64,000 nucleotides of DNA from an uncultured Rubripirellula sp. (GTDB taxonomy: Bacteria > Planctomycetota > Planctomycetia > Pirellulales > Pirellulaceae): assembly GCA_938045805.1 (NCBI GenBank), contig CALIBL010000067.1, positions 1 through 64,000 of the forward strand, given 5' to 3'. Below the pieces are notes generated by a model, which worked only from the letters and a program-made list of their open reading frames with translations, searched no databases and was not told the DNA's origin. Positions 8,746 through 64,000 of the stretch are shown one piece after another. The number at the start of each line of letters is the position of its first letter. Within the stretch, counting starts at the first letter, position 1. Both the position numbers and the translations under genes were made by a program.

Positions 8746-10164
8746 ATGTTCTCAATTCCACGTCCAAGCGGTAACACGTCGGATCACTCATTGGCGTTTT
8801 CAATGAGTACCCAATCGCGACCACATCGCAGCTTTGGAAACCAGAACTGCGAGGGAATCACCCGTCGAGACAGTATCAAACTTGGGCTTGGCGGCTTGGT
8901 TGCAGGCGGCCTGTCCGGTGCATTGCAAGCCACCAATGCCTTGGCTTCCACCTCGTCATCCGCAGGGAAACGCCAAGCAGATGCGTGCATTCTGATTTGG
9001 ATGGATGGTGGCCCGAGCCACTATGAAACCTTTGACCCCAAGCCCGACGCCCCCGCTGAGATCCGCGGCGAGTTTAGCCCGATCGCCACCCAGACCCCGG
9101 GCATTCATTTCTCGCAACTCATGACAAAACTCGCCGGCATCACCGACGATCTCGCGATCGTCCGTTCCATCCGACATGATCAGGGAAATCATGGCGCTGG
9201 CAATCATTACATGATGACCGGTGCACCACCGAGAATCCCGGTTGGCTGCGGTGCCTTTGTTAGTTTTCATCCAAGCCTCGGGAGTGTGGTCTCGCGAGAG
9301 GTGGGAGCGCCGGAAGGCATTCCCGCTTATTTCTCAATGCCCAATATGTCTCGGTCTGGTGGTCCCCATTTCCTCGGTGCGAGGCACGCGCCGTTTGTGG
9401 TACCGGACGATCCCAACTCAAGTTCATTTCGGGTTCGAGATGTCACTCTGCCCAATGGATTGAGCGAAGGACGTTTTGAGTCTCGCCAGGCAATTCGACA
9501 CCAGATCGATCAAATGGTTCGAATCACCGAAGAAGCGGCGGGAGATCCAGTGCTCGCCTCGGACGAGTTCTTCGCGCAAGGACTCCAACTGATCAGCAGT
9601 TCTCAGGCGCAAGCAGCGTTTGATATTCATCAAGAGTCGGGAGCCATTCGAGAAGCCTACGGTCGACATCCTTTCGGGCAGCGTGCCTTGCTTGCTCGTC
9701 GCCTCGTCAGCGCCGGTGTTCCCTTTGTAACGCTCTATCATGGCGGGTGGGATCATCATACGGACATCTTCAAGTCGTTCGAATCGAAAATACCACCGTT
9801 TGAATCCACCATTGCCGCTTTGATTTCCGACCTCAAACAACAGGGGATGCTCGAACGAACCCTAGTGATTGCACTTGGTGAGTTTGGCAGGACACCCAAG
9901 ATTAACGACCGTGGTGGTCGAGATCACTGGTCCAATGCCATGAGTGTCATGTTTGCCGGTGGTGGTACACCCGGTGGTCAGGTGATCGGCGCTACGGATC
10001 GACAAGGTTACGCGGCAGTTGAACGTGTTCTCTCCCCTGAAAATTTCGTTTCAACCGTCTACGCGAAGCTGGGTATCAATCCGGGTCAACTCATGTACAC
10101 GCCGGATGGTCGCCCTGTTCACCTTGTCAGCGATGAAACTCCGATCACGGAACTGATGGGTTAA
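8746..10164 (+). CDS. DUF1501 family secreted protein
   Basis: A 472-residue DUF1501 protein, a family with a sulfatase/alkaline-phosphatase-like fold usually found next to DUF1549/DUF1553 proteins. TRRDSIKLG followed by a glycine-rich hydrophobic stretch near residues 38-65 looks like a Tat export signal. Recognisable family segments are IWMDGGPSHYETFDPK, RHDQGNHGAGNHYM, LYHGGWDHH and LGEFGRTPKINDRGGRDHW, all rich in potential metal-binding Asp and His. An AGGAG ribosome site at 8731-8735 overlaps the upstream stop and supports the ATG at 8746. A second in-frame ATG lies at 8803. The biochemical role is not established; pairing with the upstream haem-motif protein suggests joint export and action at the cell surface or periplasm. 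Confidence 0.92.
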   Translation: MFSIPRPSGNTSDHSLAFSMSTQSRPHRSFGNQNCEGITRRDSIKLGLGGLVAGGLSGALQATNALASTSSSAGKRQADACILIWMDGGPSHYETFDPKPDAPAEIRGEFSPIATQTPGIHFSQLMTKLAGITDDLAIVRSIRHDQGNHGAGNHYMMTGAPPRIPVGCGAFVSFHPSLGSVVSREVGAPEGIPAYFSMPNMSRSGGPHFLGARHAPFVVPDDPNSSSFRVRDVTLPNGLSEGRFESRQAIRHQIDQMVRITEEAAGDPVLASDEFFAQGLQLISSSQAQAAFDIHQESGAIREAYGRHPFGQRALLARRLVSAGVPFVTLYHGGWDHHTDIFKSFESKIPPFESTIAALISDLKQQGMLERTLVIALGEFGRTPKINDRGGRDHWSNAMSVMFAGGGTPGGQVIGATDRQGYAAVERVLSPENFVSTVYAKLGINPGQLMYTPDGRPVHLVSDETPITELMG

Positions 10165-10165
10165 C

Positions 10166-11866
10166 ATGAGTCGTCGTTCCCTTCTTCGCTTATTCCCTCT
10201 GTTCGTCCTTGCGATTGGTCTTCCGAGTCAAATTCAAGCGCAGGTGCAACTTGATCGCTTGTTCCCGTGTGTGGTGCAGAGTGGAAAAAGATCGACGATC
10301 AAAGCGGAGGGTAAATTTCCCGCGTGGCCGGTCAGTCTTGTTGCCGATCGAGAAGATCTACAGTGGGAAGCCGAAGATGAAGCGGGGAGCTTGGCGGTAA
10401 CTGTCCCTGAAGGTACACCACCGGGGATCGTCTGGCTCCGAATGACCGACGAAACCTCATCGAGTGACCTCGTCCCTCTTCTCATCACGACCGCACCGAC
10501 ACTACTTGAAACGGAACCCAACCAAACAGCGGGTGAGGCAAACCCCGTCACCACTCCAATCGCGGTTTGCGGAAAACTTGGCAAAAGTGGCGACTTAGAT
10601 GCCTATCGCCTCTCAGCGAAATCAGGGGAATCCATCAACGTCTCGCTAACCGCCAACCGTATCCTTGCTAGTCCAATGGATGCGGTGCTTCAGATTGCGG
10701 ACATACGCGGTAATGTCCTCGCTCAGGAAGATGACACAAGAGGCCTCGATCCATCAATCCGATTTGTGGCACCCGAGGATGGTGAATACCTGATTCGAGT
10801 CTTTGCATTCCCTGAAACTCCCAACAGCACGATCGGTTACGCCGGTGCCGCAACCTTTGTGTACGGTTTAACGATCGCCCGAGCCGAAAAATTTGTAGAG
10901 CACTTCCTACCCATGGAATTCACCGGCGGTCGCGAATCAGATCGCCTCCTCGGTCAAACTCGCGCCTTTGGCTGGCAACTGCCCCAAGAAATCCCTCTCA
11001 CCTTAACCAAAGCAACCCCTGTATCGCCAAGGGTCGCATCAGGAAATGGATTCTTTGGCTGGCAATGGATCCCTGAGATCGATGACAGCGAGTTAGAGGG
11101 GATCATCGAAACCTCGGACTCGACCGACAAGACTACCGCTGCTGAAGAATCGCTCAAACCTCACCAGGTTCCATTCAGTTTTTCAGGACATCTTGCGACC
11201 CAAAAGGAAGTGGACTCCGTTACCTTCGAGGTGCAAGCGGGTCTCAAATACCGAGCCTCGATTAACTCCAAACGCTTCGGCTACCCGATCGACACCGAGC
11301 TCAAAATTGTCGACTCAAACTCCGGAGAGATCATCGCGAGTAATGATGACCAAAGTCGCAATGACTATGACTCCTCGTTAGTGTTTACCGCGAAAGAGGA
11401 TGGCAGATTCATTGCCGAGATCCGGGATGCGGTTGACGGATATGGTCCACATCACGCCTACACTTTGAAGATTCAAGAAGTCCAACCCCATTTTTCACTT
11501 AGCGTGACTGCACAGAGTTATAAGATCGAACCGAGTAAGACGCTTGAAGTCACTGTTAATGTTAGTCGTCAGGATGGCTTCAACTTCCCGATTGAGATCT
11601 CACTGGCCCCCTTTCCCGATGCAGATGTCAATTCGTCAATCACTGCACAACCGGTGACGTCAGCGGAAAAAGGCGACACGGCAAAAACCGTCAAGCTCAT
11701 TGTCTCGGCCAGTGATGGTGCGAACTTTCAGGGTTGGTTTCGTATCGTGGGTCGTTCGATCGAGGGAGACAAAACGAACAGCGAAACCACCTCAACAGCA
11801 ACTTATTCGCTACGCCCCGAGATTGCCCTAAAGAACCTTTGGCTGAACGCGAAACCATCCAAATAG
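10166..11866 (+). CDS. Secreted protein with PPC (pre-peptidase C-terminal-like) domains
   Basis: A 566-residue exported protein. Residues 1-26 form a signal peptide ending near QIQAQ. Two regions resemble bacterial pre-peptidase C-terminal beta-sandwich domains: one around TEPNQTAGEANPV with GKSGDLDAYRLSAKSGE (about 110-235), the other around KEVDSVTFEVQAG (about 340-430), with DSNSGEIIASNDDQ as the typical acidic turn. No protease catalytic triad is visible, so it is probably a binding or structural partner. The ATG lies one base after the DUF1501 stop, making this the third gene of the operon; the same gene order recurs in planctomycetes. What it binds cannot be read from the sequence. Confidence 0.8.
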   Translation: MSRRSLLRLFPLFVLAIGLPSQIQAQVQLDRLFPCVVQSGKRSTIKAEGKFPAWPVSLVADREDLQWEAEDEAGSLAVTVPEGTPPGIVWLRMTDETSSSDLVPLLITTAPTLLETEPNQTAGEANPVTTPIAVCGKLGKSGDLDAYRLSAKSGESINVSLTANRILASPMDAVLQIADIRGNVLAQEDDTRGLDPSIRFVAPEDGEYLIRVFAFPETPNSTIGYAGAATFVYGLTIARAEKFVEHFLPMEFTGGRESDRLLGQTRAFGWQLPQEIPLTLTKATPVSPRVASGNGFFGWQWIPEIDDSELEGIIETSDSTDKTTAAEESLKPHQVPFSFSGHLATQKEVDSVTFEVQAGLKYRASINSKRFGYPIDTELKIVDSNSGEIIASNDDQSRNDYDSSLVFTAKEDGRFIAEIRDAVDGYGPHHAYTLKIQEVQPHFSLSVTAQSYKIEPSKTLEVTVNVSRQDGFNFPIEISLAPFPDADVNSSITAQPVTSAEKGDTAKTVKLIVSASDGANFQGWFRIVGRSIEGDKTNSETTSTATYSLRPEIALKNLWLNAKPSK

Positions 11867-11903
11867 AAGTCTTGGGCCAAAATAGCGTTCGTCGGCGCTC
11901 ACG

Positions 11904-13121
11904 CTACGCCGGTTGCTCCATCATCAAGGCGGCCAGCAATGCGGCTCTCTTGGGTAAATCGGCCAGCATGAGATGTTCGTTTGATTGATGAGCACCTGCC
12001 CCAACCGCTCCCAAACCATCGAGTGTGGCAGCAACCGGACTGGTGAAGTTACCATCTGAACCACCTCCCACCGCAGTTTGATCAATTTCAAAACCAAGGC
12101 GATCAGCAAGACGACTAGCGGACTCCCACAACCGCTGATTCCGATCATTCCCCTCCATCGGCGGACGCTCCAAATCCATCTCGAGGTCAACTCGAAAGTC
12201 ATCGGATTCGCTCACGAGTGAATTCAACTCTTGCTTGATTCTTCCAAGGTCATTTTGTGAACTCAATCTGACATCCACCACGACCTCGCAATGCGGCGCC
12301 ACCACGTTAGCGGCGATGCCACCGTGAATCAGACCTGGGCTGAAGTTGACCGAAGGAAACCTCTGCCGAATCGCTTCGAGTTGATTCAGTGTCCGCACCA
12401 TCTTGTCAATCGCGTTACGCCCCTCGGTTGGATTCAATCCCGCATGGGCCGCTCTTCCCTCAACCTTCAAGGTAATAAAACCACCTCCCCGACGTTCGGT
12501 TTTCAGTAACCCCTCGTGGCCGACAGGTGGTTCTAGGACGAAGACTCGATCGCAACAGGCAGCCAACGTCCTAATGATTTCGCTTGTGCCGGGACTTCCG
12601 GTTTCTTCGTTGGTGTTCAGTAGCATGATTGGTTTCAGCGTCGGAGTAAGACTTAAGTCGCAGATTACCTTCAGAGCAAACATCGCTTGAACAATGCCGC
12701 CTTTCATATCAAAAACCCCCGGCCCATAGAGTCGTTGATCCGCCTGATGAATCGGCATCTTCTCCAATGTTCCTAGAGGCCACACGGTATCCACGTGACC
12801 AAGCAACATCTGACGCCTCGACTTACCGGCGCGATGCGGTAACACCTCCGCGAAGTCTCTTTTAGGAACAAAAACGCACACACCCGCGGACTGGAAATCC
12901 GTAGGTCGCGACTGCTCGGCCCCTGTCACGCGAATCCAGCGAGCTCGATAACCGAGCGGCTTCAACCAGTCTTCGATTTTTGAAACCACTCGCCTCTGCG
13001 AGCTAAGATCGGACGTTGGAGACTCAATCGCAGCAAGATCCACTACCAATTGCACCATCGCATCCGACTGCTTCAAAAGCCGGTCGGCTAAACAACCGAG
13101 AAGATCATCGCTTAACGCCAT
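11904..13121 (-). CDS. M20-family zinc metallopeptidase (carboxypeptidase G2-like)
   Basis: A 405-residue M20 peptidase/deacylase. The metal-binding elements are in order: GHVDTVWP, GPGVFDMKGG with the bridging Asp, NTNEETGSPG with the catalytic Glu pair, a following LEPP, and a late His in AHQSNEH. The dimerisation domain lies between, starting around RRGGGFITLKVEGRAAHAG. These features fit glutamate carboxypeptidase-like enzymes, which cleave C-terminal glutamate or similar acyl-amino-acid bonds; the substrate is undetermined. A longer frame reaches 13190 but would overlap the upstream gene. The ATG at 13121 leaves a 25-base gap and begins at MALSDDLLG, so I prefer it. No signal peptide is seen, so the product is probably cytoplasmic. 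Likely co-transcribed with the CvpA-like gene. Confidence 0.9.
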   Translation of the reverse strand: MALSDDLLGCLADRLLKQSDAMVQLVVDLAAIESPTSDLSSQRRVVSKIEDWLKPLGYRARWIRVTGAEQSRPTDFQSAGVCVFVPKRDFAEVLPHRAGKSRRQMLLGHVDTVWPLGTLEKMPIHQADQRLYGPGVFDMKGGIVQAMFALKVICDLSLTPTLKPIMLLNTNEETGSPGTSEIIRTLAACCDRVFVLEPPVGHEGLLKTERRGGGFITLKVEGRAAHAGLNPTEGRNAIDKMVRTLNQLEAIRQRFPSVNFSPGLIHGGIAANVVAPHCEVVVDVRLSSQNDLGRIKQELNSLVSESDDFRVDLEMDLERPPMEGNDRNQRLWESASRLADRLGFEIDQTAVGGGSDGNFTSPVAATLDGLGAVGAGAHQSNEHLMLADLPKRAALLAALMMEQPA

Positions 13122-13146
13122 CAAACGGCCCCCTCGAGGATCGCGT

Positions 13147-14136
13147 CTAGAACATCGGCTTAGGGCCAAGCGGGTCAATCTTGGACGCATCCAACTGATC
13201 TAACAGATCGATCACATTGGCCCGAAGTGCTGGTTCATCCAACAATCCCATGATGCTGGGATGATTCAATAGAAGCCTAATGTCTTTTCCTGAGAGAGGC
13301 ACGTTGGTACTAAACATTTTTTTGATGGCTTGATCTTCTTTGAGTCGGGTTAACCACTGCTGCACCGACTGATCACTCACCAGATTCTGATAGGCAGGAA
13401 ATTTCTTTAATGAGCGGATCGCTGAGGGACGGGAAATGAATTCACAAACGGTGATGGCTTTCTTCACGATCCCCCAGTCTCTCACAGATATCAGCGGACG
13501 CGCTCCCACAAATGCTCCGCCAACTCGGGATGCCTCAAACTGCTCACCGGTCTTTTCGATCCAAACAAGCACCTTGCCCTTCGGATCTTCAACCCTAAGT
13601 CCTGATAGCCAGCTTTGCGGCGTGTTATCACGCTGATGCTTTGCAATCGCCGTCACCAGACCTACGAGCAACGCGACCAATAGAAGCCCCTCGAGGCAGC
13701 CCACTCCAAATCCGAGCCAGTGATTCCATCTTGCTCGATTGCCGCTGCTTAGAAAACCTCGGGCAAATAAATGACACAGCAAAGTTGTGCTTGTGATGAC
13801 GACGACTGCCACCAAAATGCAACCCAAAGAGCGATTGGCCAGTCCAGTGAGTCCCGTAACCTGTGAGATCGGTTGTTTGATCTGGATCGCCAGCGATTCG
13901 CCAAAGCTAATGAGAAGAAAAAATGACAACAGCAATGCGAGATGGGCCAGGAGACCGATGCGATAGCCGATTAACATCGCCGCTGCGGCGAGCATCCATA
14001 GCACTAACGATGTCATATCAGACTGAAGAAAGAACATCACCGATGGTGCAGAGATGCAACTCATCACGATGAAATCATCAAGCAACGAGCGTTTCTTCGA
14101 GCCTTTGGGCGATTCTTCTTCAGATGCTTGTGACAT
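13147..14136 (-). CDS. CvpA-like multispanning membrane protein
   Basis: A 329-residue inner-membrane protein. A short charged N-terminus (about 20 residues) precedes four hydrophobic helices between residues 25 and 165. The arrangement and the RNHWLGFGVGCLEGLLL-type helix match CvpA family proteins, which are linked to colicin V production and cell-envelope stress. The C-terminal half is soluble and helical, with repeated short blocks around FPAYQNLVSDQSVQQWL and LLNHPSIMGLLDEPALR, an uncommon extension for CvpA. It is first in a two-gene minus-strand unit with the M20 peptidase 25 bases downstream. I judge CvpA membership likely from helix pattern rather than from invariant residues. Confidence 0.65.
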   Translation of the reverse strand: MSQASEEESPKGSKKRSLLDDFIVMSCISAPSVMFFLQSDMTSLVLWMLAAAAMLIGYRIGLLAHLALLLSFFLLISFGESLAIQIKQPISQVTGLTGLANRSLGCILVAVVVITSTTLLCHLFARGFLSSGNRARWNHWLGFGVGCLEGLLLVALLVGLVTAIAKHQRDNTPQSWLSGLRVEDPKGKVLVWIEKTGEQFEASRVGGAFVGARPLISVRDWGIVKKAITVCEFISRPSAIRSLKKFPAYQNLVSDQSVQQWLTRLKEDQAIKKMFSTNVPLSGKDIRLLLNHPSIMGLLDEPALRANVIDLLDQLDASKIDPLGPKPMF

Positions 14137-59404: not shown

Positions 59405-62400
59405 CTAGGATTTTGCCTGCTCACTCGAGACTAGTGACTTCGGATTGAAGCCGAGCTCGGCGTACCGTTCTGCCACCCTCTGGACGGTATATCGAATCTG
59501 TTCTTCGGTATGCTCGCAAGTCAGGAAGAAACGCAAACGGGCGGCCGATTCGTCCACTGCAGGGTACAGAATCGGTTGGACGTTGATACCATCCCCACGC
59601 AGTCGGTTTGAGAGCCGGAGTGCGACCATTGAGTTCCCGGTGATGACCGGAATCACAGGCGTTCCCTCGCTGTCACCCGTATCAAGCTGAGCTTCACGAC
59701 ACAGAGAGAGGAACAGCTCACTACGCTCTCGTAGCCGCTCAACACGCTCCGGCTCTCTCTCGAGTGTCTCGAGAGCGGCCAAGGCTGCTGCGACCTGAGC
59801 AGGTGGAGCACCCACGCTAAATACGAACCCTGGGGCGGTGTAACGGAGGAGTTCGACCAAAGCCTTCGAGCCAGCGATATATCCGCCACAGGACGCCGCG
59901 GATTTACTGAGAGTCCCCATCCAGATATCAACATCCCGAGCATCAATGCCGTAATGCTCAGCCATGCCGTGACCAGTCGGCCCCATTGTGCCAAAACTGT
60001 GCGCCTCATCGACCATCAACATCGCTTGATGCCGCTTTTTCACTTCGATGAATTTCGGTACATCCGCAAAATCACCGTCCATGCTGTAGACGCCTTCAAT
60101 GGCGATCAGCACACGGCGGTATTGTCCACGAATCTCCGAGAGCATTCGGTCCAAAGCATCGTAATCATTGTGCGGAAACGGTCTTCTGCGGGCACCGGAT
60201 AGCAAGGCACCTTGCACGATACTGTTGTGCGCAAGTGAATCGTGCACAATTAAGTCACCCGCTCCGACCAGATGCCCGATGGTCGTCTCATTGGTCGCAT
60301 GTCCGCCGACCATTAAGATCGAATCGTCGACCCCAATCCAATCGGCAATCTTCTTCTCAAGCTGACCGTGAATTGGTTTCTCGCCCGAGACAAGTCGGCT
60401 TGCAGACACACTCGTTCCGTATTGCCTCACAGCGGCGGCAGCAGCTTCTACCACGTCCCGATGGCCACTCAAGCCAAGGTAATTGTAGGACGCAAAGCTA
60501 ATTAACTCCTGTCCCCCGACAACAGTCGTGTCCCGAACCACGCCTTCATGAACGGTAAAGTAAGGATTGGGGACACCGGTCATCATCATCTGCTGCTTCG
60601 TGTTCTGCAGACGCTGGTACTCAGCAAAGTCCTCCACTCGCGACTCAGGTGGGACAGCTACCTTCGTTGCAGTATTGATGCTATCACTGACAATCTCCTC
60701 GCGAGGTGTCTCCCCACTGAGAAATGCCTCTGCCCTACTGCCTGAACCACTGGGCAAGTAGCGTTCAATCGCGATGGCGGTTTGGCCAATGGTTTCGATC
60801 TCATCCAACACCTGCTCGGGGAATCGTCCACCAAAGGTTCTCTCAAGAATCCGAGCGATCTCCAAGCGTTCGAGGCTATCCAGCCCTAGATCGAGAACGA
60901 TATTGGTTCCCAATTCCAACGAACTCGCCCGCTCACCGGCAATCTGACGCACGTGGTGTTGGATAACCTGCACAATCGCCGGATTTACATTTTCGGCACC
61001 AATCTCGTCATTCGCACCAGCAGCGGCTGCAGCTTTCATCATGGTTTCGCCGCCCGCGGCAAATCCACCTCCGCTGGCCTCTTCCCAACGGACCCATTTC
61101 GCGATGATTTTTAAGTCGCCATCGCGAACGGCATGGAGACATGCATGACGTTGTATTTTCCCGCTACTCGTCTTGGGAACGCTGCTGTTTCGAACCAGAT
61201 AAATCGCATCCGGTGGGAGTTCATGCTCCTCGGTCACCGCACGACGAATGGCTTGTAGGTTTGCATCCCAATCGATGTCGCGAACTCGAACCGTCTCGGC
61301 GACCACCACCAACTGCTCGCGTCCTTCGTAATCCATTGCGAAAGCCGCCACCGAGCCCGCCTGCACCACTTCGCTCGCACGCTCAACCGTCTCCTCAATG
61401 TCCTGCGGATAGCGATTAACGCCTCGCACGATGATCATGTCCTTGAGACGCCCGGATACATACAGTTGGCCGTCATAGAGGAAACCGAGATCTCCGGTTC
61501 TCAGATATGGACCATCACCCTGATTGGTGAACGCGTTAAACGTTCGTTCCGTGGCTTCTTTCCGCTGGTAATAGCCCACACCGACGGAAGGGCTCTTGAC
61601 CCAAATTTCACCAATTTGGTCGCTATCTAATGCCTGATGGGTCTGTGGATCAACAATCGTTACGGTCTCGTCGGTCAGCACCGCTCCACAACCCACTAGC
61701 TTTCTCGCACGCTCATGCGACTCATCAACCGCCTCAACCCGCTTCTCCTCAAGGCGGCTCCCATCAAACGTCTTCAACACTGGCCGTGTCTCAGAAGGAC
61801 CACCAGTGACCAAAAGCGTCGTTTCAGCCATCCCATAGCAAGGAAGCAGAGCCCCACGCCGAAACCCGTATGGCTCAAAACGTTCGCAGAACGCTTCGAG
61901 TGTGGACGAACGAATCGGCTCGGCGCCGTTAAAAGCAATATCCCAAGTCGATAGGTCAATACCTTCCAGCTCGTCGTCTGGGATTTTGTCGATGCACAGT
62001 TGGTAGGCAAAATTGGGACCGCCGCTGACGGTGACCCCATACTTCGTGATCGCCTGTAGCCACCTCACAGGACGCTGGAGAAACGTCATCGGGCTAGTAA
62101 GAACATCTACCCGACCAATGTATAGCGGCATCAGAATGCCTCCAACCAACCCCATATCGTGGTAGGTGGGAAGCCAGCTCATCCCCACCAAATCCGGCGC
62201 AGGCTGAAACCCTTCACGAATCAACTCGCTGTTGGCAATCAGATTCGAATGATTCAGCATCACGCCTTTGGGTGATCCGGTTGATCCCGAGGTATATTGC
62301 AAAACCGCTAACGATGAATCTTGCAACTTGGGTCGACGCCACTTGGAGACATCTCGAAGTTCGGGCGTATCAGTTGCTAGAAGTTGCACGCCAATAAGAT

Positions 62401-62827
62401 CGTCATGTGGCTGATCGCCTTTGAGCTGATCAACCACTGATCGCGAGGACAGGGCCCAACGAGCATCCGAGTCAACGACAATCGAACGAATCCGTGATGC
62501 CTTGCGGTTTCTGCGTGGCGGGTAGGCGGGTACCGCGATCGCTCCGGCAGCGTGACAGGCAAAAAAGCCAATGATGAATTCGAGCCCAGGTGGATAAAGA
62601 AGTAGCACGCGATCACCTGCACGAATCCGGCACTGATCCTGCAGTGCACCTGCCAGCGCGCACACTTCCTCCCAAAGCTGCGCGTAGGTCAACGTCTCTT
62701 CCAACGACTCGACGTCGGTGAAGGTAAACGCAGCATCATCCGAACGGTATTCCGCCCAGTGCTGAAGCACGTCGATAAAATTGGTGCGTGGTGGAGGCTG
62801 TACGCCGTCAAATACTTGCAAAGCCAC
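59405..62827 (-). CDS. Fused acyl-AMP ligase, acyl carrier protein and alpha-oxoamine synthase
   Basis: An 1140-residue fusion. Residues 1-590 are a fatty acyl-AMP ligase: YTSGSTGSPKG near 177-187, AYPPRRNRK, SWLPTYHDMGLVG, CYGMAETTL and YLRTGDLGFL. An Ala-rich linker leads to an acyl carrier protein (about 610-690) with the phosphopantetheine serine in LGLDSLERLEI near residue 647. From about 740 an alpha-oxoamine synthase follows (serine palmitoyltransferase, KBL and BioF class): SYNYLGLSGH, DDSILMVGGHATNETTIGHL, VDEAHSFGTMGPTG and the PLP lysine in GTLSKSAASCGGYIAG near 974. Together they could load a fatty acid on the carrier and condense it with an amino acid to a 3-oxo amine, as in sphingoid-base synthesis. 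Partners must supply 3-keto reduction. The family calls are firm; the product is inference. Confidence 0.9.
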   Translation of the reverse strand: MALQVFDGVQPPPRTNFIDVLQHWAEYRSDDAAFTFTDVESLEETLTYAQLWEEVCALAGALQDQCRIRAGDRVLLLYPPGLEFIIGFFACHAAGAIAVPAYPPRRNRKASRIRSIVVDSDARWALSSRSVVDQLKGDQPHDDLIGVQLLATDTPELRDVSKWRRPKLQDSSLAVLQYTSGSTGSPKGVMLNHSNLIANSELIREGFQPAPDLVGMSWLPTYHDMGLVGGILMPLYIGRVDVLTSPMTFLQRPVRWLQAITKYGVTVSGGPNFAYQLCIDKIPDDELEGIDLSTWDIAFNGAEPIRSSTLEAFCERFEPYGFRRGALLPCYGMAETTLLVTGGPSETRPVLKTFDGSRLEEKRVEAVDESHERARKLVGCGAVLTDETVTIVDPQTHQALDSDQIGEIWVKSPSVGVGYYQRKEATERTFNAFTNQGDGPYLRTGDLGFLYDGQLYVSGRLKDMIIVRGVNRYPQDIEETVERASEVVQAGSVAAFAMDYEGREQLVVVAETVRVRDIDWDANLQAIRRAVTEEHELPPDAIYLVRNSSVPKTSSGKIQRHACLHAVRDGDLKIIAKWVRWEEASGGGFAAGGETMMKAAAAAGANDEIGAENVNPAIVQVIQHHVRQIAGERASSLELGTNIVLDLGLDSLERLEIARILERTFGGRFPEQVLDEIETIGQTAIAIERYLPSGSGSRAEAFLSGETPREEIVSDSINTATKVAVPPESRVEDFAEYQRLQNTKQQMMMTGVPNPYFTVHEGVVRDTTVVGGQELISFASYNYLGLSGHRDVVEAAAAAVRQYGTSVSASRLVSGEKPIHGQLEKKIADWIGVDDSILMVGGHATNETTIGHLVGAGDLIVHDSLAHNSIVQGALLSGARRRPFPHNDYDALDRMLSEIRGQYRRVLIAIEGVYSMDGDFADVPKFIEVKKRHQAMLMVDEAHSFGTMGPTGHGMAEHYGIDARDVDIWMGTLSKSAASCGGYIAGSKALVELLRYTAPGFVFSVGAPPAQVAAALAALETLEREPERVERLRERSELFLSLCREAQLDTGDSEGTPVIPVITGNSMVALRLSNRLRGDGINVQPILYPAVDESAARLRFFLTCEHTEEQIRYTVQRVAERYAELGFNPKSLVSSEQAKS

Positions 62828-63269
62828 TGTGGTTCGCTATCCGATTGGATCGAGTTTTGGATACAAATCCGCTGGCAAACCTGTACTTGCGGCTCTTCAT
62901 GAACCGGTCCGCTAGGCGATGCCAACAGAAAATGTAAGATCTTTCATGCCGGAACCGTACCCGTCAGTACGCATTATTCGTCAGATCGGGGCCGGAAAAC
63001 ACGTTGGAGGTGGTCTTCAGGCCGCCGAGGCCGGACGAATGCAGCGACATTGCCCTGCGGAAATGCGGTAAATTCAGGATACTCGTTCGATGGTGGTCGA
63101 TTCGCCATGACGAGGTGCGTCAGAGAAGCGAGTTTCTGCTCGGTTTTCTCTGATGATCAGCGTCGGACATACCGTCCCACGCTCTGTTTTGTCGGACGCC
63201 GCCATACTTCGAAGTGAACCGTGGTGCCGGTGTTGGCTCAACCCTAAAAACTCAAATTACTGGCTTGAC
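62828..63269. other. Divergent region between the fusion gene and the asparagine-synthetase-like gene
   Basis: A 442-base shared upstream region. It holds the promoters of the oxoamine-synthase fusion and of the edge gene. No domain-bearing frame and no confident operator or riboswitch was found. A 68-codon frame at 63214-63420 is a shadow of the edge gene. Confidence 0.45.
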
Positions 63270-64000
63270 ATGTCTAATTCGTCCACCCCTCGCAAATCCA
63301 CCCCCTGTGAGGCTACCCAAGTCGATCCCGAAACGGCCTCCACCCAAACTGGCCAAAAATCAACGTTGGCAGCGACTCAGCCAGTTCAAAGGGACTTTGA
63401 CGGCCGGCAAGCGGAATTGATCGACCGCGTAGTTAACCTACTCGACCCAAAGGGGAATCTCCTACTGGGCACCTCCTTTGAGCAAGCGGCTCAGGCGGTT
63501 CGTGATGGGGACACCGCAGCAATACGTCGGATCTGCGGACAATTTGCGATCTGCGAACAGTCTGGGAAAACCATTCGAATGGCGAGATCCCTTGGTAGGC
63601 CAATGCGATACTTCCTTGCAAAACGGGCAGAAGGACCCGCGTTGATCATCGCTGAGCGGATGGACGAAATCCGAGAGCAACTCGAGCAAGAAGGTCTCGC
63701 AGATCAGTTTCACCCGTCCTACACCCGAATGGTTCCCGCGCATCACCTTCTCGAACTTCAACTCGTTGGATGCCCAGACCCCAACCCAACCCTTCATCGT
63801 TTCTTTGCCCCCAAACGCAACCGGTTACAAAGCGACATTGATGCAATTGGCGGCCAATACATCGGAAAGGTCGCTGAGATCTGCGACCGGTGGCTCGACT
63901 TAGTACCGCCAAATGAACCGATCGGCTTGATGTTCAGTGGCGGAATTGACAGTGGTAGTCTGTTGATTCTTTTGGATTACCTACTACGCCGAAAAGGACA
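63270..64000 (+). CDS. Asparagine-synthetase-like protein, N-terminal part (cut by window edge)
   Basis: An open frame from the ATG at 63270 runs off the right edge after 243 codons with no stop, so only the N-terminal part is visible. After about 45 polar residues it has a glutaminase-like (Ntn-type) fold: CGQFAICEQSGKTIRMARSL and PALIIAERMDEI. Then FMSGGIDSGSLL-like LMFSGGIDSGSLL near residue 230 is the PP-loop ATP-binding motif of asparagine synthetase and beta-lactam-synthetase relatives. It lacks Cys at position 2, the glutaminase nucleophile, so the N-domain is probably not active with glutamine. It is divergent from the oxoamine-synthase fusion. The reaction (amide or lactam/amide-ligase chemistry) is open. 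Confidence 0.82.
   Translation, partial: MSNSSTPRKSTPCEATQVDPETASTQTGQKSTLAATQPVQRDFDGRQAELIDRVVNLLDPKGNLLLGTSFEQAAQAVRDGDTAAIRRICGQFAICEQSGKTIRMARSLGRPMRYFLAKRAEGPALIIAERMDEIREQLEQEGLADQFHPSYTRMVPAHHLLELQLVGCPDPNPTLHRFFAPKRNRLQSDIDAIGGQYIGKVAEICDRWLDLVPPNEPIGLMFSGGIDSGSLLILLDYLLRRKG

Follow-up and report, generated by a model that had tools for sequence, protein, structure and literature searches.

A single-chain ligase, carrier protein and oxoamine synthase

The 64,000-nucleotide stretch of DNA that we analyzed (hereafter the window; contig CALIBL010000067.1 of an uncultured Rubripirellula sp.) encodes a long protein in which a fatty acyl-AMP ligase (FAAL), an acyl carrier protein (ACP), and an alpha-oxoamine synthase (AONS) are joined in one chain (Table 1). 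The original prediction had proposed a single polypeptide of 1140 residues with all three active sites in place, and both proposals hold. The chain is confirmed by the open reading frame (ORF) and by Pfam matches that each exceed the cut-off of their family (AMP-binding, residues 22-420; AMP-dom_DIP2-like, 463-576; PP-binding, 621-684; Aminotran_1_2, 774-1118). To examine the active sites, we aligned the window protein with 69 homologs, drawn from 80 homologous loci by keeping ORFs of 1080-1400 aa and leaving out those that were cut, too long, or too short. Ligase residues K187, E335, D446, R460, and K557, the ACP serine S651, and AONS residues D940, H943, and R1099 are identical in all 70 rows, and K975 of the AONS in 69. 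We take K557 to be the C-terminal catalytic lysine of the ligase, S651 the phosphopantetheine attachment site of the ACP, and K975 the lysine of the AONS that binds pyridoxal phosphate (PLP). The majority residue is shared by fractions of 0.36 and 0.32 of the rows in the two linkers versus 0.67-0.76 in the three domains. Judged by its sequence, the fusion thus runs from a complete FAAL through a complete ACP to a complete AONS, with the catalytic residues intact.

Table 1. Parts of the FAAL-ACP-AONS fusion and their positions in the window
Feature	Position	Strand	Basis or remark
Whole ORF, FAAL-ACP-AONS fusion	59405..62827	(-)	1140 aa, GTG start
Fatty acyl-AMP ligase domain, residues 15-578	61094..62785	(-)	Pfam; FAAL structures; AasR identity
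K557 of ligase	61157..61159	(-)	same in 70/70 rows
Linker 1, residues 581-618, variable	60974..61087	(-)	alignment
Acyl carrier protein domain, residues 621-684	60776..60967	(-)	PP-binding
S651 within GLDSLE of ACP	60875..60877	(-)	same in 70/70 rows
Linker 2, residues 691-733, variable, 19-51 residues across sampled rows	60629..60757	(-)	alignment
Alpha-oxoamine synthase (AONS) domain, residues 734-1127, SgaB/RkpG clade	59447..60628	(-)	Pfam; trees
K975 within TLSKS of AONS	59903..59905	(-)	same in 69/70 rows

The solved structures nearest to the ligase part are all FAALs (7r7e/7r7f/7r7g, 3kxw, FadD23, and FadD32), and this domain is 34% identical to AasR of Escherichia coli BL21, which carries the RefSeq name fatty acyl-AMP ligase; it is of the FAAL-type acyl-ACP synthetase kind. 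The nearest structures to the AONS part are the serine palmitoyltransferase (SPT) of Sphingobacterium (3a2b), a Thermus-type BioF/KBL, and KBL. The predicted structure of the whole fusion is of middling quality (mean pLDDT 74.7, pTM 0.51). One fused protein from a Pirellulaceae locus (L068, ORF 10001-13480) has Thr in place of the PLP lysine and Asp in place of the histidine of HNSI, and lies on a long branch; its AONS domain is probably inactive.

The fusion is a core gene of the order

The genome of the window (4.8 Mb, 94% complete, 113 contigs) contains a gene whose closest relatives are in metagenome-assembled genomes (MAGs) of Rubripirellula. A search for the same domain order, which the original prediction had recommended, found the fusion in 56 of 60 relatives, in 50 of them as one open frame. 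This count of 50 includes G008, where the first 21 residues are missing at a contig edge; in the other six (G009, G010, G013, G023, G026, and G030) the fusion is cut, split over contigs, or interrupted by stops. The same chain is present in the single-chromosome records CP036526, CP036272, and CP036432. An artefact of assembly or a frameshift, the possibility on which the prediction could have foundered, is refuted by the open frames and by these records, and we give it a negligible chance. In the four relatives lacking the fusion (G037, G038, G048, and G041, the last a closed genome), the best matches are to a FAAL-ACP protein, to FAALs within giant proteins, or to an AONS that stands alone. 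The fusion is therefore a core gene of the order and no local oddity. Blastopirellula, which is mentioned again below, presumably belongs to the same order as the organism of the window. More broadly, at least 12 of 244 genomes sampled across the phylum have the fusion (eleven Pirellulales and one truncated copy, in G195), as do two Phycisphaerales MAGs (L073 and L080). Among 10 of 656 plasmid records with AONS matches, inspected together with their surroundings (11 matches covered, two of them lacking annotation), there were AONSs associated with polyketide synthases (PKSs) and no FAAL-ACP-AONS.

The AONS domain groups with polyketide-associated enzymes

The domain had been predicted to be of the SPT type, and this part of the prediction has to be revised. 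A 48-row tree unites 24 fused AONS domains with 8 PKS-associated AONSs in a single clade (support 100/99). In a tree of 66 rows, the corresponding clade (100/100) has 41 rows: 27 fused domains, 11 PKS-associated AONSs, two ACP-AONS proteins, and one stand-alone AONS. KBL, BioF, ALAS, and a PigH-like row lie across a 97/91 branch from it, and a separate clade (97/91) unites four known or presumed SPTs with six planctomycete stand-alone AONSs encoded beside bCerS. Membership of the canonical SPTs was ruled out, the domain being outside their clade in the larger tree. Neither tree shows the clustering with BioF or KBL that the original prediction had named as counting against it. Identities point the same way, with 50-60% to PKS-associated AONSs and 32-35% to SPTs, 33% to KBL, 27-38% to BioF, and 32-35% to ALAS. 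On this evidence from sequence comparison, the AONS of the fusion belongs to the SgaB/RkpG clade of PKS-associated AONSs. It also shares with the latter the type of its motif GTSVSASRLVSG, which differs from the GTGxxGSRxxNG of canonical SPTs.

The PKS-associated rows come from varied settings: a Pseudomonas plasmid AONS with an adjoining PKS, clusters of Paraburkholderia and Caballeronia that hold PKS, LTA-synthase-family, and polysaccharide genes, a pSymB cluster of Sinorhizobium with short-chain dehydrogenase/reductase (SDR) and capsule genes, and PKS-AONS fusions of Planktothrix and Streptomyces. In the tree of 66 rows, L073 and the truncated copy of G195 group with PKS-associated rows, and a single origin of the fused AONSs is neither rejected nor shown (p-AU 0.061).

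Five Pirellulaceae loci (L213, L214, L215, L216, and L233) encode proteins of 2555-2607 aa that end in an AONS 60-62% identical to that of the window; the three placed in the tree fall with the window's domain. By their length and by comparison, these proteins look like PKS-ACP-AONS fusions.

Ceramide genes in the genome and in neighborhoods

The genome of the window has one homolog of the ceramide N-acyltransferase bCerS (aca/YghO), at G000:C72, an intact ORF of 377 aa that is 41% identical over 398 aa to the bCerS gene of locus L073, and one strong homolog of the reductase CerR, a CerR-like SDR at G000:C32 that is 47% identical to the L073 gene. It has no SPT candidate besides the fusion. 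In L073, from Phycisphaerales, the order of genes is fusion, bCerS (GNAT-type), an LPG_synthase_C gene, CerR (NAD-dependent epimerase), MlaC, MMPL, and MlaA. The bCerS gene lies within about 25 nt of the fusion; its first possible start overlaps the stop of the fusion by four bases, and there is an in-frame ATG about 20 bases further on. Over 380 residues, the L073 GNAT protein shares 33% identity (E 7e-70) with YghO of E. coli BL21, whose sphingolipid cluster we took from NC_012971. YghO is the aca of the E. coli sphingolipid cluster (PMC9386255).

The association extends well beyond this locus. bCerS is present in 57 of the 60 relatives, including all 56 with the fusion, and is missing from three of the four without it (G038, G041, and G048), an association with p about 1e-4 if genomes are treated as independent, that is, uncorrected for kinship. 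Of 197 genomes sampled within the order, 184 contain bCerS, and 103 of the 104 genomes with a clear fusion have it. A clear fusion was here a single match with E = 0, counting G354, which lacks the first 178 residues; the matches in the other 93 genomes do not in every case allow a firm call. Over the phylum, bCerS was found in 75 of 244 genomes, and in none of 28 from the same class but other orders (27 in family f21 and one in f22), for which no fusion match was listed either. Match coordinates put a stand-alone AONS within about 650 bases of bCerS in 22 or more genomes from other classes, and the six of these AONSs placed in the tree all fall in the canonical SPT clade. Within the phylum, one N-acyltransferase family is thus found in the company of two different gateway enzymes, canonical-clade AONSs elsewhere and the fusion here.

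A conserved operon around the fusion was sought and rejected: over the 80 loci only the fusion is widely shared, and the next families, found in 24 and 20 loci, owe their frequency to near relatives or to multicopy families. Only five loci (L030, L031, L054, L083, and L084) have a KAS III gene close to the fusion. bCerS and CerR-like genes adjoin each other (within 600 bases) in 8 of the 60 relatives (G023, G026, G027, G035, G042, G054, G057, and G059).

Other arrangements were also seen. Two Pirellulaceae genomes that also carry the fusion encode ACP-AONS proteins, of 502 and 532 aa, divergent to an adjoining bCerS homolog (L208:6108-9072) and an adjoining CerR homolog (L210:5673-8790), respectively. 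G037 has a 742-aa FAAL-ACP protein elsewhere (L228:8727-10955) and, divergent from a second bCerS paralog, an AONS that stands alone (L226:7980-11357). In G241, the end of a contig carries bCerS together with a CerR that is 64% identical to the L073 protein (L232:7772-10134); the fusion was not found in this genome, but the contig breaks off where L073 would carry it.

Comparison with known systems

The AONS of the S. meliloti pSymB capsule cluster (L197), whose genes we take to be RkpA/RkpG, is 50% identical to the domain of the fusion and belongs to the same clade. The rhizobial clusters differ in their PKS partner, their capsule context, and the lack of a FAAL; the fusion has no PKS in cis or adjoining, and FAAL-ACP stands in its place.

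The closest functional parallel is the route of Caulobacter and E. coli B, in which a FAAL-type acyl-ACP synthetase (AasR), a dedicated ACP (AcpR), and an AONS (SPT) act in series and are linked to aca (bCerS) and epi (CerR), genes with homologs in the genome of the window (PMC9386255). AasR, AcpR, and SPT are separate proteins in this proteobacterial route, as had been predicted for known pathways, whereas here the three parts make up one 1140-aa chain. The SPT of that route is in the canonical clade and 33% identical to the domain of the fusion, which is an SgaB/RkpG-type AONS.

A precedent for the chemistry comes from SgaA/SgaB of Pseudomonas fluorescens MYb115, a PKS pair with a same-clade-type AONS, a carrier-bound chain, and published serine SPT activity. 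PfSgaB is reported to convert acyl-CoA and L-serine to 3-ketodihydrosphinganine and to be virtually exclusive for serine over alanine and glycine (PMC12134224). There an iterative PKS builds the chain and the AONS gene is separate, whereas the FAAL here would recruit a ready fatty acid and all parts are fused.

The architecture is not new and had already been tabulated in 2013 as A-CP-PLP2, in Blastopirellula marina (A3ZWL3) and Microscilla marina (A1ZVW4) (Table 2 of PMC3870968). The domain order is identical to that of the fusion; in that paper these proteins appear as a domain listing, with no specificity, cluster type, or product assigned, and A-CP-PLP2 proteins are also reported from Bacteroidota and Cyanobacteria. 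Finally, 138 Planctomycetota MAGs with Spt-like proteins have been reported from the Black Sea and, like the genome of the window, combine an AONS with bCerS and CerR (PMC11334938). Unlike the fusion, these AONSs, in the loci that we examined, stand alone with a length of about 390-490 aa, are encoded next to bCerS, and group with the canonical SPTs.

A proposed one-chain entry to ceramide-like lipids

FAALs make acyl-AMP and hand the acyl group to a carrier, and AONSs condense an acyl thioester with a PLP-bound amino acid and release CO2. In the light of its domains, relatives, and accompanying genes, the fusion is probably a single-chain 3-keto-sphingoid-base synthase, whose product would be N-acylated by bCerS and reduced by the CerR-like enzyme. 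The FAAL would use ATP to activate a free fatty acid to acyl-AMP and load the acyl group onto the phosphopantetheine of the adjoining ACP, so that the chain would be self-loading. The PLP-bound AONS, presumably a dimer, would then take the acyl chain from the ACP and condense it with an amino acid, with loss of CO2. Because of the SgaB precedent, this amino acid would most likely be L-serine and the product a 3-keto sphingoid base; the sphingoid-base-like product of the original prediction is in this respect kept as the likeliest outcome. The bCerS homolog at G000:C72 may then N-acylate the base, and the CerR-like SDR at G000:C32 may reduce the result to a dihydroceramide.

Doing work like that of AasR, AcpR, and SPT on one chain, and with an SgaB/RkpG-type AONS, the fusion would stand in for the canonical SPT in Pirellulales. 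We lean, with some reserve, toward the view that Pirellulales make ceramide-type sphingolipids through this one-chain FAAL-ACP-AONS, its polyketide-type (SgaB/RkpG) domain having displaced the canonical SPT; we would put about the same modest trust in the downstream bCerS, and often CerR, having been kept. This would be a non-orthologous displacement of the gateway enzyme within the phylum, other Planctomycetota having a canonical-type SPT next to bCerS, and sphingolipid synthesis would be a core trait of Pirellulales. The occurrence of the fusion with a ceramide-synthase-like gene across the order suggests that the group has its own route to ceramide-like lipids.

Several observations weigh against this proposal. 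The fusion, bCerS, and CerR are on three separate contigs in the genome of the window, and L073 is the only one of the 80 loci in which the fusion itself adjoins bCerS. The CerR of L073 is only 26% identical to E. coli epi/CerR (E 6e-25). Strong CerR matches (E below 1e-35) occur in 41 of the 56 relatives with the fusion versus two of the four without; the occurrence of CerR is thus not tied to that of the fusion, and the candidacy of CerR as a third co-occurring gene is not borne out by the counts among the 60 relatives. An intact fusion in G363 and a truncated one in G195 are accompanied by no bCerS match, and G037 has bCerS without the fusion. Shared descent explains part of the co-occurrence with bCerS, and among related genomes such co-occurrence alone is weak evidence. 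The comparison with SgaB was made with the homologous Pseudomonas plasmid protein and not with PfSgaB itself, and the L068 copy has lost its PLP lysine.

What else might the fusion make? RkpG-type AONSs of capsule clusters are thought to produce long-chain amino ketones or amino alcohols that serve as lipid anchors, and the fusion could likewise make a lipid anchor for the envelope or a polysaccharide and not a ceramide. The clade does include rhizobial RkpG and homologs from Paraburkholderia, Caballeronia, and Pseudomonas in or near capsule, polysaccharide, and LTA-synthase genes, and Pirellulaceae also have the putative PKS-ACP-AONS proteins with their close AONS domain. Yet, over the 80 loci, capsule genes are not the rule among the neighbors of the fusion, no family but the fusion being conserved, and both the co-occurrence and the synteny of L073 point to bCerS, which makes the anchor unlikely in our view. 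A related possibility, to which we give somewhat less credit still, is that another amino acid (glycine, alanine, lysine, or cysteate) is used and deoxy- or other oxoamine lipids result. The sequence gives no certain choice, and GTSVSASRLVSG is unlike the motif of canonical SPTs; against this, the motif type is common to PKS-associated AONSs, and PfSgaB is reported to be near-exclusive for serine (PMC12134224).

An enzyme of biotin or threonine metabolism, of the BioF/KBL type with an acyl-loading front end, is very improbable. Although bioF tops the NCBIfam AONS families for this domain, its 352 bits are below the cut-off of 426, and no equivalog cut-off of the BioF, KBL, or ALAS families is reached. 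A separate BioF-like gene, for biotin, lies at C11 of the same genome and scores higher (387 bits). Together with both trees, which set the domain apart from BioF, KBL, and ALAS, this gene leads us to reject such an identity.

The probable role as a 3-keto-sphingoid-base synthase would have several consequences. A large and widespread bacterial order would join the makers of sphingolipids, with a gateway enzyme of a kind that searches based on SPT could misfile, and within a single phylum a condensing domain of the polyketide kind would have taken over the gateway step. Such a self-loading chain also lends itself to easy assay, with fatty acid, ATP, and amino acid going in and a 3-keto amine coming out. 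In the open-access literature, most subscription papers being outside this coverage, we found no function for the fusion, no placement with SgaB/RkpG, and no tie between Pirellulales and bCerS. New here are the bCerS and CerR homologs in the genome, the L073 cluster with its Mla-type transport genes, and the co-occurrence of the fusion with bCerS.

Genes beside the fusion and beside bCerS

Directly downstream of bCerS in the genome of the window (L132:5825-7408, on G000:C72) is a gene for a 527-aa beta-ketoacyl-synthase-like protein. By eye against the FabF motif, we take its active-site cysteine to be missing (GPNNSIVLGD). A homolog is similarly placed in 12 of 26 other loci, most of which span just 1500 bases of flank (11 of the same genus, plus L174).

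Upstream of the fusion and divergent from it, a gene at 63153-63998 (+) runs past the end of the window and encodes 526 aa in full (L135:7154-8734). Its first 282 aa match no Pfam family; its SGGIDSG motif recalls, we presume, the ATP-binding domains of asparagine-synthase-like proteins. A homolog lies upstream of the fusion in 16 of the 80 loci.

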